Source: Bdellovibrio bacteriovorus str. Tiberius (GTDB taxonomy: Bacteria > Bdellovibrionota > Bdellovibrionia > Bdellovibrionales > Bdellovibrionaceae). Taken from it: a stretch of DNA of 64,000 nucleotides. The notes beneath the pieces were generated by a model, which was not told the origin of the DNA, ran no database searches, and saw nothing but the letters and a program-made list of their open reading frames with translations. The translations under genes were made by a program, and so were the position numbers. Below are positions 16,649 through 38,237 of this stretch, in pieces (positions within the stretch are counted from its first letter, which is position 1; each line of letters opens with the position of its first letter). The DNA lies in contig NC_019567.1 in the NCBI RefSeq assembly GCF_000317895.1, positions 868,001-932,000 on the forward strand, read 5' to 3'.

Positions 16649-16660
16649 TGCTTTTGTGGG

Positions 16661-16684
16661 TGCCCCGGTGATAGGATCGGGGCA
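16661..16684 (+). promoter_or_regulatory. hairpin enclosing the ribosome site of the alpha/beta hydrolase
   Basis: TGCCCCG (16661-16667) pairs perfectly with CGGGGCA (16678-16684); the last base of the stem is the A of the start ATG, and AGGA of the ribosome site lies in the 10-base loop. It may restrain translation, or simply punctuate the upstream gene; no T-run follows. Confidence 0.45.
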
Positions 16685-17385
16685 TGAAGCAACTTGAAAC
16701 TATTGTATTGCTGCCGGGATTTTTGTGTGATGAAAGGCTTTGGGCCCCTCTGGTGCCGGTTTTTTCTGAACACTACAATGTTCGAGTGGTGGATTTGAAG
16801 CATCCTCAGAATCTGGATGCCATGATCGAAGAAGTTGGCAAGACAGCCGACAAGACATTTCATCTGGTCGGCTTTTCCATGGGTGGGTATATCGCTGAAA
16901 CATTTGCGACCCGCTTTCCTGAACGAATTCTGTCTTTATCCCTTATAGCTGCAAGTGTGGGTGCCCTGTCTGAAAAAACACGGGCGGCGCGCCTGAAAAT
17001 GGTGGTTCTGTTAAAGCGCGGAAAATACAACGGCATCTCGGAAAAAGAGATGGATCGTTATATTCACCCGGATTTTCTGAACGATCCCCAGGTTGTGGGA
17101 CCTGTCATGCAGATGAGTGCGGATTTTTCCTCTGAACAGTATATCAACCAAACCCTGGCCACTGTGGACCGAGTCGATCAAGGTGCGGCTTTGCAGGAGC
17201 TTTCGTTCCCGGTGTTGATTGTCGCCGCTGCCAATGACCGCGTGGTTCCTTTTGATTCCCTCAAAAACCGCCATGCCCAGATAACTCGATCCAAGTTTCA
17301 CGTGATTGAGCATTGCGGGCACTATGTGCCTTTGGAACAGCCCAAACTGCTGGGTCATGCCATTCTTGATTTTGTTGGAAGGTAA
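16684..17385 (+). CDS. alpha/beta hydrolase
   Basis: A 233-residue alpha/beta hydrolase. Seen are the early oxyanion region LLPGFLCDERLW, the nucleophile elbow GFSMGGYIAE, a catalytic Asp in AANDRVVPF and the His in EHCGHYVPLEQP. It resembles BioH/MenH-sized carboxylesterases; the substrate is unknown. No signal peptide. A GC hairpin encloses its ribosome site. The next gene starts three bases after the stop, so the two are very likely one operon, and the secreted DJ-1-like gene upstream may be part of it. Confidence 0.88.
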   Translation: MKQLETIVLLPGFLCDERLWAPLVPVFSEHYNVRVVDLKHPQNLDAMIEEVGKTADKTFHLVGFSMGGYIAETFATRFPERILSLSLIAASVGALSEKTRAARLKMVVLLKRGKYNGISEKEMDRYIHPDFLNDPQVVGPVMQMSADFSSEQYINQTLATVDRVDQGAALQELSFPVLIVAAANDRVVPFDSLKNRHAQITRSKFHVIEHCGHYVPLEQPKLLGHAILDFVGR

Positions 17386-18194: not shown

Positions 18195-19412
18195 ATGCAT
18201 CATGATGTTTCTGTGACGGACGATAAAAATATACGCAAAGATCTTTTCTTTGCGTCGTCGAATCTGCTGAAGAAAATTCGACAGCTTGAAAAAGACCATA
18301 CGGACTTTCTGCTTTGGGATCAGATCCTTTATCAGGATTGGTACAACCTGACATTTAGAAATGAACTGCAAGCGGGCGAGCTGCTTGAAAAACGTCACAA
18401 GGTTCTGACCACTTTCCAGGTGCATTTGAAATACGTTGCCAACACCTCGGACGTTCCTTTGGAGCGTGCTTACTGCATGCTGAAAGAGGAGGAAAGCCAG
18501 TATCAGGCCGGTGATGACGTATGGAAGTTTGTCATCGATAAACTGAGAAAGAACCGCTTCGACACCGCGACAAGATCATCAGCACTTCCCGGAGAGCCGG
18601 CGCCTGTCGATGACGACGAACCGGCAATCAACTTTGCCGAGATTTTCTTTAAAGACGATTCCGCCTTAAGCGGCCTTAGACGTCGCGCGCGTTCCGTGTA
18701 TCATTACCTGAATGATATTGATGACGGCATGATGGCGCGTCACTTGTCCGTGCCAATGGCTGGCTACCAGTTATTCAAAGAGACTTTCCAGATCGCGATG
18801 AAGTGCGGGGACTGGAAGCTGCTAGGCCGTCTGTGGAAGGCTGCCGATCCCGCATATCAGCAAAGATATCTGCGCAATATGCCGGTGCATCTGAAAGACT
18901 TCCTGCAGCAGATCATTGCTGAAAACGCCAGCCAGGAAGCTTTGGAAAAAGAACAGGCCGAGGCGGAAAGCCTGGTGCGCACCACGTACCGAAAGCTCGC
19001 GCGTCTGCTTCATCCCGACAAGCAGATTGGGGTTTCAAAAGAACATCAGGAATGGGCTTCGATCAAGTGGCAGCGTGTGCAGGCCGCTTACAAGTCCCAG
19101 GATCATGATGCCTTGAAACGCATCGAGCTTTTGTGCATGGCCGAGCTGGGTCAGCTGAATGATCTGACCACCGATGAAATATATCAAAGCTCGCTGGTGC
19201 TGAATGAAGAGTACGAGTCGCTGAAGAAAAATCTGAAAACCTGCCGTAAGCACCCGGCCTGGAAGTTTTCCGGTCGACGCAGTTATGAGACTTTGAAAAA
19301 ACAAGCCCGTATCGATCTGGAAAAGCGCTTCGGCCCCTTGGAGGCAGAAGTGCACATGCTGGAAAACCTGCTGAAAATGCTTTCCGCCGCCGAGATGCAG
19401 GCTGTTCATTAA
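18195..19412 (+). CDS. J-domain protein
   Basis: A 405-residue cytosolic protein. The J domain is internal rather than N-terminal, at about residues 260-310: VRTTYRKLARLLHPDKQIG, with the diagnostic HPD that stimulates DnaK ATPase. The N-terminal 240 residues are helical, charged and unrecognised; the C-terminal 90 residues look like coiled coil (LVLNEEYESLKKNLKTC). It lacks the Gly/Phe and zinc regions of DnaJ, so it is a specialised class C co-chaperone. The ATG at 18195 follows AAGGGA; a TTG nine bases upstream is less likely. Confidence 0.8.
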   Translation: MHHDVSVTDDKNIRKDLFFASSNLLKKIRQLEKDHTDFLLWDQILYQDWYNLTFRNELQAGELLEKRHKVLTTFQVHLKYVANTSDVPLERAYCMLKEEESQYQAGDDVWKFVIDKLRKNRFDTATRSSALPGEPAPVDDDEPAINFAEIFFKDDSALSGLRRRARSVYHYLNDIDDGMMARHLSVPMAGYQLFKETFQIAMKCGDWKLLGRLWKAADPAYQQRYLRNMPVHLKDFLQQIIAENASQEALEKEQAEAESLVRTTYRKLARLLHPDKQIGVSKEHQEWASIKWQRVQAAYKSQDHDALKRIELLCMAELGQLNDLTTDEIYQSSLVLNEEYESLKKNLKTCRKHPAWKFSGRRSYETLKKQARIDLEKRFGPLEAEVHMLENLLKMLSAAEMQAVH

Positions 19413-29978: not shown

Positions 29979-30052
<74 letters not shown>

Positions 30053-34407: not shown

Positions 34408-34459
34408 GGCAAGCCAGCCCCGGGTTTCGAGTTTTTGTATTGAATTGAATGGAGAGAAT

Positions 34460-36196
34460 ATGTCTGTATACGATCAACTGCCAGAAGGTGTAACACGCGA
34501 AACGATGGACGTGGATGTCCTGATCGTCGGTGGTGGTTCCGCGGGTATGTCCTGCGCATTGCACCTGCAAAATCAAATTCAAAAACACAACGAAGACGTT
34601 GCTGCCGGTAAAAAGCAGGGCGAGCAAATCCCGGAACAGATGATCGTTGTTCTGGAAAAAGCTTCGGAAGTGGGCGCGCACAGTTTCTCGGGCGCGGTTT
34701 TGAATCCGAAGGCTTTGACTGAGCTTATTCCGAACTTCAAAGAAGAAGGCTGCCCGATTGACTCTGAAGTCAAAAAAGATGCGGTTTATTATCTGGGTTC
34801 TGACTTTTCTTTCAAGCTGCCAATCACTCCGCCGCCGTTCCATAACGAAGGCAATTACATTATCTCTCTTTCCAAGTTCAACCGCTGGTTGGGCACAAAG
34901 TGTGAAGAAAAAGGCATCAACATCTTCCCGGGCTTTGCGGCGGTGGAAGCACTGTATGAAGGCGACAAGATCGTCGGCATTCGCACCGGCGACAAGGGTC
35001 GCGATAAACACGGCAATCCAAAGGCGAACTTTGAGCCGGGTCTGATTCTGAAATCCAAAGTTGTGATCTTCGCTGAAGGCACGCGTGGTTCCCTGTTCCA
35101 GAAGGTTGAAAAGAAACTGAATCTGCGCGCAGGTAAAAACAAAGAAGTCTTCGAAGAAGGCGTGAAAGAAATCATCCAGATGCCAGCGGGCACGGTGGAA
35201 GCAGGCCAGGTTATTCATACCATGGGCTTCCCATTGTCCAAATCCATCGGCGGTACTTTCATCTACACCCTTCCAGGGGACAAGATCATCGTGGGCCTGG
35301 TTGCTTACCTTGATACCCAGGATCCTTTGCTGGATCCGCATCGTGAACTGCAAAAACTGAAAACCCATCCGTTCCTGCAAAGCATGCTTAAGGGCGGTAA
35401 AGTCATCGCTTACGGCGGTAAGACCCTGCCTGCGGGCGGCTGGTATTCCATGCCGAAACTGTACGGTAACGGCTTTATGGTCTGCGGTGACTCTGCCAGC
35501 ATGGTGGACGTGCAGAAGCTGAAGGGTATCCACTTGGCGATGAAATCCGGCATGCAGGCGGCGGAAGCCGTTATTGACGGGTTGATCAAGGGTGGCGATT
35601 TCTCTGAGGAAGTGACCAAGGGTTATTCCGACCGTATTGAAGCCGGCTTCGTAAAAGAAGAGCTTTACCGCGTTCGTAACTTCCACCAGGCGCTAAGCAA
35701 GGGGATCGTGGAAAGCATGCCACTGTTGGCCCTGCAAGAGCTGACCGGCGGCCGTGGTCTGCAGGATCCAATGCCGATTGACCATATCGACGCTGAAACC
35801 ACTGAAAAAGTCCTGGATATCTGGGGCCCTTACGGCCTGGATCACGAGGATAACAAGCTTCCAAAACCGGACGGCGAGCTGTTCTTTGATAAGCTATCCA
35901 GTGTTTACCTGACCGGGACCATGCACGACGAAGATTCCCCAAACCACCTTATTTTGAAGGACGGGGATATTTGCCGTACGGTATGTGAGCCTCAGTACAA
36001 ATCACCATGTAATCATTTCTGCCCGGCGGCGGTTTATGAGATGGTGCCGTCTACAAAAGAGGCAGGTAAGAAGGACTTACAAATCAATTATACCAACTGT
36101 ATTCACTGCAAAACTTGTGATATTAAGTGCCCATTCGAAAATATCGAGTGGACCGTTCCTGAAGGGGGCGGTGGACCACAATACCGCGAAACATAG
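34460..36196 (+). CDS. electron-transfer flavoprotein-ubiquinone oxidoreductase
   Basis: A 578-residue ETF-QO. It passes electrons from reduced ETF, fed by fatty-acid and amino-acid dehydrogenases, to the quinone pool at the membrane. The N-terminus holds the FAD motif VLIVGGGSAGMSCALHL; the middle has VVLEKASEVGAHSFSGAVLNPKAL; the C-terminus carries the 4Fe-4S cluster cysteines CIHCKTCDIKCP with IEWTVPEGGGGP. Length and ends match the family, so it is complete. A GGAGAG site precedes the ATG at 34460. The ETF subunits are not in this window. Confidence 0.95.
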   Translation: MSVYDQLPEGVTRETMDVDVLIVGGGSAGMSCALHLQNQIQKHNEDVAAGKKQGEQIPEQMIVVLEKASEVGAHSFSGAVLNPKALTELIPNFKEEGCPIDSEVKKDAVYYLGSDFSFKLPITPPPFHNEGNYIISLSKFNRWLGTKCEEKGINIFPGFAAVEALYEGDKIVGIRTGDKGRDKHGNPKANFEPGLILKSKVVIFAEGTRGSLFQKVEKKLNLRAGKNKEVFEEGVKEIIQMPAGTVEAGQVIHTMGFPLSKSIGGTFIYTLPGDKIIVGLVAYLDTQDPLLDPHRELQKLKTHPFLQSMLKGGKVIAYGGKTLPAGGWYSMPKLYGNGFMVCGDSASMVDVQKLKGIHLAMKSGMQAAEAVIDGLIKGGDFSEEVTKGYSDRIEAGFVKEELYRVRNFHQALSKGIVESMPLLALQELTGGRGLQDPMPIDHIDAETTEKVLDIWGPYGLDHEDNKLPKPDGELFFDKLSSVYLTGTMHDEDSPNHLILKDGDICRTVCEPQYKSPCNHFCPAAVYEMVPSTKEAGKKDLQINYTNCIHCKTCDIKCPFENIEWTVPEGGGGPQYRET

Positions 36197-36210
36197 GAAG
36201 CCTGGCGTTC

Positions 36211-36246
36211 GGACTGGGCTTTCTTAACAAAGGAAAGGCTCAGTCC
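36211..36246 (+). promoter_or_regulatory. hairpin sequestering the ribosome site of the RlmL-like gene
   Basis: A 15-bp stem with one bulge: GGACTGGGC (36211-36219) with GGCTCAGTCC minus one G-U step (36238-36246), then TTTCTT (36220-36225) with AGGAAA (36231-36236), loop AACAA. The whole purine-rich ribosome site AAAGGAAAGG lies inside the stem, two bases from the ATG. A competing stem, AAGCC (36198-36202) with GGCTT (36217-36221), would open it. Confidence 0.65.
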
Positions 36247-36247
36247 C

Positions 36248-37372
36248 ATGCCTCAGTTTTTTGCCTCCACAGCCCGTGGACTTGTTGAACCCCTGGAACT
36301 TGAATTGAAAGAGCTTGGCCTGAAGGTCACAGACCGTTACATCGGTGGTGTGTTCTTCGAAAGCAACTGGGAAGGCTGCTATAAAGCGAACCTTCATTCC
36401 CGTTTGGCCAGCCGTATTCTGAAGCCTGTACTGGATTTCACGGCGTATCAGCCGGAAGAACTGTACAGCCAGATTCTTCGTCACGATTTCACCAAATACA
36501 TCAAACCGAATCAGACGATCTCCATCGACGCCAGCGTCAATGAATCCAAAATGCGTGACCAGCGTTTTGTGGCGATGAAAGTCAAAGACGCTATCGTCGA
36601 TCAGTTCCGCGAAAAATTCGGCGTGCGCCCGGATGTTGATAACACCAACCCGGATCTGCGCATTCACGTGCGCGCGATCAAAAATCAGTTCAACATCGCG
36701 ATCGACACTTCCGGTGACAGCTTGTTCAAGCGTGGTTACCGCAAAGAAGTCGGCGAAGCTCCATTGAAAGAAAACCTGGCAGCGGGTCTGCTGCGTTTGT
36801 CCGAGTGGGACCGTCAAAGCCCGCTGGTGGATTTCATGTGCGGTTCCGGGACATTCCTGATTGAAGCTGCGATGATGTCCATGAACATTGCTCCTGGTAT
36901 CAACCGCAAAGGTTTTGGTTTCCAGAACTGGTTGAACTATGAAGAAGAAACCTGGGAAAAAGTGATCCAGGAGGCTATGGACGCTGAAAAAGAAGAACTT
37001 GATTTCAAGTTCTATGGCTTTGATATCGACAAGCGCGTTTTGATGAATGCGAAAGACAACGCCAAGCGTGCCGGTGTTGACGAAGTTATCGAATTCAAAA
37101 AAGAATCCGTGGCGACTGTGGAGCCACCGGTTGAAAAAGGTCTGATCATCGTGAATCCGCCTTATGGCGCGCGTATCGGTGATGAAGACAACCTGCGTGA
37201 CGTGTACCGTGACCTGAGCTTCACCATGAAGCACAGATTCAAGGGCTGGGACGCATGGATCCTTTCCGGCAACAAAGAGCTGATCGCGGATTTGAAACTG
37301 AAATCCACGCGCAAGCACTTCGTGTTCAACGGCAATATCGAATGCCGCTTCCTTAAATACTCCATGTTCTAA
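36248..37372 (+). CDS. THUMP-domain rRNA methyltransferase (RlmL-N/YpsC-like)
   Basis: A 374-residue SAM-dependent RNA methyltransferase. The N-terminal region (FFASTARGLVEPLELELKELGL; DLRIHVRAIKNQFNIAIDTSG) is a ferredoxin-like plus THUMP RNA-binding module; the catalytic part has VDFMCGSGTFLIEAAMM and the NPPYG motif of N2-guanine or N6-adenine methylases. RlmL makes m2G2445 in 23S rRNA; this is the single-domain form. Translation may be controlled by the hairpin covering its ribosome site. Confidence 0.9.
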   Translation: MPQFFASTARGLVEPLELELKELGLKVTDRYIGGVFFESNWEGCYKANLHSRLASRILKPVLDFTAYQPEELYSQILRHDFTKYIKPNQTISIDASVNESKMRDQRFVAMKVKDAIVDQFREKFGVRPDVDNTNPDLRIHVRAIKNQFNIAIDTSGDSLFKRGYRKEVGEAPLKENLAAGLLRLSEWDRQSPLVDFMCGSGTFLIEAAMMSMNIAPGINRKGFGFQNWLNYEEETWEKVIQEAMDAEKEELDFKFYGFDIDKRVLMNAKDNAKRAGVDEVIEFKKESVATVEPPVEKGLIIVNPPYGARIGDEDNLRDVYRDLSFTMKHRFKGWDAWILSGNKELIADLKLKSTRKHFVFNGNIECRFLKYSMF

Positions 37373-38205: not shown

Positions 38206-38237
38206 AAAAAAACCGAGGCTTGTAACCTCGGTTTTTT
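38206..38237. terminator. bidirectional terminator
   Basis: AAAAACCGAGG pairs with CCTCGGTTTTT around a short loop, with A- and T-runs on both sides, between two convergent transcripts. Confidence 0.9.

Follow-up and report, generated by a model that had tools for sequence, protein, structure and literature searches.

Mutually exclusive hairpins before an RlmL-like rRNA methyltransferase gene of Bdellovibrio suggest a possible translational switch conserved beyond the genus

In Bdellovibrio bacteriovorus str. Tiberius, the gene for an RlmL-like 23S rRNA methyltransferase lies shortly downstream of that for an electron transfer flavoprotein-ubiquinone oxidoreductase (ETF-QO), and the short leader between them raises the question of whether its RNA can adopt two alternative structures, one of them hiding the ribosome-binding site, and whether both have been maintained by selection. 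We examined this leader in a window of 64,000 nucleotides (the whole stretch of DNA analysed, to which all coordinates refer) within the 3.99-Mb genome, labelled G000, together with its counterparts in related bacteria. The ETF-QO gene occupies 34445–36196 on the + strand (Pfam Fer4_ETF_QO, 5e-41, and ETFQO_UQ-bd). After a gap of 51 nt, the RlmL-like gene extends on the same strand from an ATG at 36248 to 37372. Its product contains the domains RlmL_1st, THUMP and UPF0020 and matches the NCBIfam RlmK/RlmL model with 407.9 bits, under the 466-bit cut-off; since the match covers model positions 5–381 of 704, the gene encodes the RlmL half only, without RlmK. The start at 36248 is supported by 59 of 66 family genomes, in which the match begins at query residue 1 or 2. 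The protein is present in all 24 genomes of the genus and in 60 of the 66 of the family (the latter at E below 1e-60). We examined 76 leaders, 24 from the genus, 35 from elsewhere in the family and 17 from elsewhere in the order. G036, whose match is without the N-terminus, was left out of all leader sets, five more family genomes had no match, and the starts of G048 and G043 were shifted by script, that of G048 being doubtful.

The original prediction had placed a hairpin immediately before the RlmL-like gene, with the ribosome-binding site in its stem, and had proposed that an upstream pairing could compete with it. Both pairings exist at the expected positions. The larger hairpin, here P2, joins a 5′ strand at 36211–36225 (+ strand, GGACTGGGCTTTCTT) to a 3′ strand, segment C, at 36231–36246 (+ strand, AGGAAAGGCTCAGTCC) across the loop AACAA (36226–36230, + strand), which belongs to an A/C-rich linker. 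Segment C contains the Shine-Dalgarno sequence (SD; AGGAAAGG, 36231–36238), and the single base C36247 separates the stem from the ATG. The suggested folding of 36190–36260 gave −28.5 kcal/mol against −17.6 ± 2.8 for shuffled sequences (z −3.86; 1 of 200 shuffles as stable), confirming the buried SD as a computed structure; the opposite strand folded unremarkably (z −1.06). Mimicry of a tRNA minihelix, considered from an AACCA in the linker between upstream stem and SD, was dropped because ACCA is not kept. The competing pairing had been described as AAGCC (36198–36202) with GGCTT (36217–36221), and these turn out to be the core of a longer stem. This 11-bp hairpin, P1, pairs a 5′ strand, segment A, at 36195–36205 (+ strand, AGGAAGCCTGG) with a 3′ strand, segment B, at 36214–36224 (+ strand, CTGGGCTTTCT) around the loop CGTTCGGA (36206–36213, + strand), and it begins inside the ETF-QO stop codon, which occupies 36194–36196 in the sequence. 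Segment B is also part of the P2 5′ strand and, with 10–11 bases in common in G000, the two hairpins are mutually exclusive.

P1 is the constant and better conserved feature of the leader when compared with P2. In an alignment of 23 Bdellovibrio leaders, 21 of them distinct, 99.1% of the P1 cells are paired against 84.3 in shuffles, and 8 of the 11 pairs show compensatory changes on both sides; the covariation score is 0.731 against 0.381 shuffled, and 0 of 500 shuffles did as well on either measure. Slid registers of the stem were far worse than the true one, with 33–71% of cells paired, and RNAalifold, run free on this alignment, returned P1. The loop has an invariant leading CG and an invariant trailing GGA in all 23 aligned leaders. 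Column counts for both hairpins come from this genus alignment; an alignment across the family, in which the mixing of distant genera put the stems out of register, contributed no counts. Beyond the genus we relied on an automated test (stem end 12–28 nt before the start codon, −7 kcal/mol or lower, GGA at the 3′ end of the loop) and on reading by eye. The automated test was positive for 23 of the 24 leaders of the genus, for 14 of the 35 from elsewhere in the family and for 0 of the 17 from elsewhere in the order, against shuffle expectations of 1.0, 0.8 and 0.35. By eye, P1 was recognised in 42 of the 59 leaders of the family, in ten genera, and this hand-read set, thus chosen for P1, underlies the counts out of 42 given below; it was not seen by eye in the remaining 17, for instance in the six leaders of genus g6. 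G065, one of the 14 automated positives, sits inside the ETF-QO coding sequence and does not belong to the hand-read set, and G066 is in that set yet was missed by the automated test. The gap between the two genes widens to 229 nt in G018, 460 in G012 and 194 in G009, with the P1-to-ATG distance unchanged. In G004, P1 is kept about 30 nt further upstream, and a 9-bp GC-rich hairpin, TACTCCGGC-GAA-GCCGGAGTG, stands between it and the SD; this leader was left out of the genus alignment and of the P2 permutation tests.

The conservation of P2 had to be approached differently. Column-wise covariation is absent in the genus alignment, in which 69.5% of the P2 cells are paired against a shuffle mean of 70.0, with 361 of 500 shuffles as high. 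The bulges of P2 vary in position from species to species, which column counting is unable to track; we therefore took the P1 3′ strand of every species and compared its duplex with the SD-to-AUG region of the same species to its duplexes with those of other species. As the species are related, the resulting permutation counts are not independent trials. Within the genus, the own duplex is modestly better (−14.6 against −13.2 kcal/mol for mismatched partners in 21 leaders; 3 of 2000 permutations). For nine other genera, represented by 18 leaders, the difference grows to −10.5 against −6.4 (0 of 2000). Both tests were run without the near-identical G023 and G013. Across ten genera the values are −12.8 and −7.8 kcal/mol; for 200 random picks of one leader per genus, none of the 500 permutations made with each pick was as low. 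The preference had a median p of 0.003 at strand shifts 0 and −6, and control strands 12–100 nt further upstream showed none (median p 0.30–0.88). In G034, G035, G059 and G030, whose sequences are quite unlike that of Bdellovibrio, the P2 strands are near-perfect complements. In 9 of 41 leaders the own duplex does not reach −9 kcal/mol; among them are G018, G001 and G012 in the genus and G087, G027 and G069 outside it. P2 thus appears selected in much of the family but not in all of it, and is weak or lost in some species. In three genus leaders whose P2 is weak or missing, G018, G001 and G008, the SD sits in the loop of a small ACGG/CCGT hairpin, and the stretch ACGGAAAG of these leaders also matches 23S rRNA.

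Since P1 covaries, and since own P2 partners beat mismatched ones where shifted controls do not, both pairings appear to be under selection. The covariation sought in homologous leaders is therefore found in P1, fails column by column in P2 and reappears there by own-partner permutation; the idea of two exclusive stems retained across the family has held, but it is the stem originally given the minor role that carries the covariation, and the headline hairpin yields none by columns. Overlapping P1 and P2 of −7 kcal/mol or lower occur together in 26 of 42 leaders against 27 of 420 mononucleotide shuffles. As a control, 57 ORF starts of the window were listed mechanically, taking the first ATG of ORFs of 150 aa or more on either strand rather than curated genes; 3 of them have such a pair of stems, that of the RlmL-like gene included. 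In translational riboswitches and in attenuator leaders of the A-B-C type, one strand is common to an anti-sequestering stem and to a stem sequestering the SD. The leader studied here shows this arrangement, with a stem that includes the SD, an exclusive upstream stem on the same strand and conservation of both pairings, and on balance we lean towards reading it as a bistable translational switch of the A-B-C type.

Computed folds suggest how such a switch might work. When the RNA ends before the SD, as in a nascent transcript, the P1 marker pair has a probability of at least 0.68 in 39 of 42 leaders; at full length and 30 °C it is below 0.5 in 23 of 42. G000 is among the latter, its P2 state (−31.4) being 8.5 kcal/mol better than the fold with P1 forced (−22.9). 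In G070, P1 is lost at full length yet the SD is open (0.92), so that loss of P1 is not always gain of P2. In the proposed mechanism, the B segment (36211–36225) would pair either with A (36195–36205) as P1 or with C (36231–36246) as P2. P2, burying the SD beside the AUG, would be the OFF state and P1 the ON state. P1 would be transcribed and folded first, and a new transcript would start without P2; the leader would be born open and then close, B being captured by the downstream strand if nothing holds P1 and no ribosome has loaded. A trans-acting factor may read the P1 loop. How far P1 opens the SD depends on the length of RNA folded. When the leader is cut at the AUG, the mean SD openness is 0.67 with P1 enforced and 0.34 with the A strand prevented from pairing, the SD being more open in 32 of 42 leaders and less in 4. 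With 15 coding bases added, the values are 0.41 with P1 enforced and 0.37; with 30 they are 0.33 and 0.35, and 13 leaders open and 13 close of the 42. In G000 with P1 forced, the computed partner of the SD is the U-rich beginning of the coding sequence, and this predicted pairing would explain why P1 stops opening the SD in longer RNAs. The earlier suggestion that the alternative stem frees the SD thus stands for leaders cut at the AUG but not for RNAs with 30 coding bases, and the label of P1 as ON, which comes from leader-only folds, is weakened because the effect vanishes with coding bases. Several minimum-energy folds also contain an outer stem, in which the A strand, once free, pairs with the coding start; it was rejected because own pairing was no better than mismatched (permutations as low: 668 of 2000 in 21 genus leaders and 1112 of 2000 in 18 others).

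In another explanation only P1 matters, acting in mRNA stability, as a ribosome standby site or as insulation from ETF-QO, and P2 is incidental. Any CUUUC strand complements a purine-rich SD, P1 is far more regular than P2, mismatched species partners within the genus still pair at about −13 kcal/mol, some leaders have P1 without P2, and the SD is not clearly opened by P1 once coding sequence is included. Such an account would nevertheless have to accommodate the strong advantage of own partners between genera, which is confined to the P1 3′ strand, and the near-perfect P2 complements in the unrelated sequences of G034, G035, G059 and G030, and we consider it unlikely. The position of P1 invites two further explanations. 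If ribosomes finishing ETF-QO melted P1, initiation at rlmL would report upstream translation, as the original prediction had allowed in proposing a coupling sensor; indeed the stop codon of ETF-QO contains the start of P1 in the window, and in 20 of 42 leaders P1 starts in the last ETF-QO codons or at most 15 nt from the stop. In the other 22, genus leaders that pair equally well among them, it starts 16–408 nt beyond the stop, too far for such coupling to be general, which makes this explanation quite improbable. P1 might instead be the intrinsic terminator of the ETF-QO transcript, considering that its 3′ side is U-rich (TTTCTT) in the genus and that the stem of G012 ends in a T run. However, a scan for terminators does not list P1, no U tract follows it in G024, G059, G030, G066, G069 and G080, and five of the 42 P1 loops exceed 30 nt; as a GC-rich stem with a U tract is not kept across homologues, we rejected this very improbable reading. 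A thermosensor had been suggested as well. The SD does sit inside a hairpin, and in 7 of 42 leaders raising the folding temperature from 20 to 45 °C adds more than 0.1 to its computed openness; yet the other 35 show no such rise, the unpaired probability in G000 going from 0.24 at 20 °C to 0.26 at 45 °C, and an RNA thermometer melting with temperature is hardly credible.

If the leader is a switch, the question becomes what reads P1. The leading candidate, in which we place clearly less than even confidence, is CsrA. P1 presents a GGA in its loop and releases the GGA of the SD from P2, and for this reason CsrA is the most likely reader; it may hold the leader open, or may bridge both GGAs and repress. 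GGA ends the P1 loop in 38 of 42 hand-read leaders, being its best-kept letters, and occurs in the SD zone in 36, six leaders having no SD GGA; as a control, an SD-zone GGA is present at 25 of 46 mechanically listed ORF starts of the window. Both GGAs are present in 32 of the 42 leaders, 13–54 nt apart (13–25 nt in 31 of the 32, 18 nt in G000). A csrA match over cut-off exists in 65 of the 66 family genomes, and in G000 the gene directly precedes another ORF that, from its position and from recall, we take to be fliW. The spacing fits the CsrA bridging range of 10–63 nt reported in PMC7652899. The same paper describes CsrA SELEX sites as having mostly at most 4 contiguous pairs and hexaloops (PMC7652899). 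The leaders do not offer an ANGGAN-type hexaloop on a short stem, loops having at least 7 nt and stems about 11 bp in the genus; the second base before the loop GGA is often U, so that ANGGA is not kept in the 42 hand-read leaders, and CsrA provides no explanation for the invariant CG on the 5′ side of the genus loops.

That same loop signature, CG...GGA, invariant in the genus, would suit a gene-specific operator, and the RlmL-like enzyme itself could bind P1 in an autogenous circuit with P2 as the closed state. KsgA and Sgm are rRNA methyltransferases with self-regulated mRNAs, controlled at translation initiation. The distribution of the element also suits such a circuit. Searched against its own genome, a 61-base leader query gave no second match below E 0.2, and a covariance model built from the 21 genus leaders plus G070, G072 and G024, with which 66 family genomes were searched, gave no other convincing copy below E 0.001; every match lies at the rlmL-like gene except one in G060. 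Stricter filters were used, with 93 candidates scored per genome, and matches at E 0.02–1 were left uninspected; the model misses the leaders of most other genera, so that the search describes the Bdellovibrio form and says nothing on distant forms elsewhere. The extra match in G060 is a terminator-like hairpin rather than a second copy. The autogenous reading fares less well against the rRNA. Mimicry by the leader was tested against both 23S strands, including that of m2G2445, at what we take to be the RlmL/RlmK target positions, and exact words in common beat shuffles (p ≤ 0.05) in only 4 of 42 leaders, three of which match through the SD purine tract. A repressor would moreover be expected to stabilise the closed state rather than P1, and we regard an autogenous operator as rather unlikely.

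Taking a switch as the preferred reading, with CsrA as the leading candidate for its reader, the leader can be placed among known systems. It shares with translational riboswitches and A-B-C attenuators a B strand that serves both P1 and the SD-sequestering P2. Unlike riboswitches, its conserved core is a hairpin with a short loop signature only, without an Rfam match at the gathering threshold. At that score the only Rfam match in the window is a tRNA (29979–30052), and there is none in ten related loci; on 36100–36320, seven sub-threshold matches, the best to an animal microRNA family (26.5 bits against a 71-bit threshold), look like chance. A likeness to the KsgA and Sgm leaders would lie in the class of gene, that of an rRNA methyltransferase, and in control at translation initiation; unlike them, the rlmL leader shows no clear target mimicry, and self-binding is hypothetical. 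In the CsrA/RsmA leaders ymdA, moaA, phz2 and psl, structures compete and protein binding alters SD access (PMC7652899). The rlmL leader would resemble them in that access to the SD depends on RNA structure, GGA motifs lying within or close to it. It differs in its longer P1 stem, its larger loops, the lack of a kept ANGGA, the invariant CG that opens the genus loop and the rRNA methyltransferase gene as target, and CsrA is here only a candidate.

The switching principle is therefore already known, and the rlmL element itself appears undescribed. Searches of open-licence literature on rlmL leaders or untranslated regions, on rRNA methyltransferase autoregulation, on Bdellovibrio with CsrA or riboswitches and on exclusive leaders contained no description of it in the titles and abstract starts among the matches listed. 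To our knowledge, few cis-regulatory RNAs have been described in Bdellovibrionota. In the main text of PMC3627812, the word 'methyltransferase' occurs 0 times. A farther-reaching reading, which we hold to be less likely than not, is that an undescribed family-wide RNA switch ties the output of an rRNA methyltransferase of the peptidyl-transferase centre to a regulator reading the P1 loop. Should CsrA (and FliW) be that regulator, modification of rRNA would be tied to the transition of the predator between its motile attack phase and its growth phase, connecting ribosome maturation to the predatory life cycle; should the reader be the enzyme itself, the leader would be a new case of autogenous control of an rRNA methyltransferase. 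A leader of about 50 nt whose two alternative pairings have survived thorough sequence turnover would also lend itself, as a compact natural example, to tests of co-transcriptional RNA switching.

Other hairpins occur in the window. At 16650–16690, a start-site hairpin (TGCCCCG...CGGGGCATG) precedes an ORF at 16684, named by eye as alpha/beta-hydrolase-like, with the AUG paired and AGGA in the loop. The third mechanically listed ORF start at which competing stems overlap is that at 18195, with stems of −11.1 and −8.3 kcal/mol. At 38207–38237 lies a strong, nearly symmetrical hairpin resembling an intrinsic terminator, flanked by A and T runs and listed on both strands.
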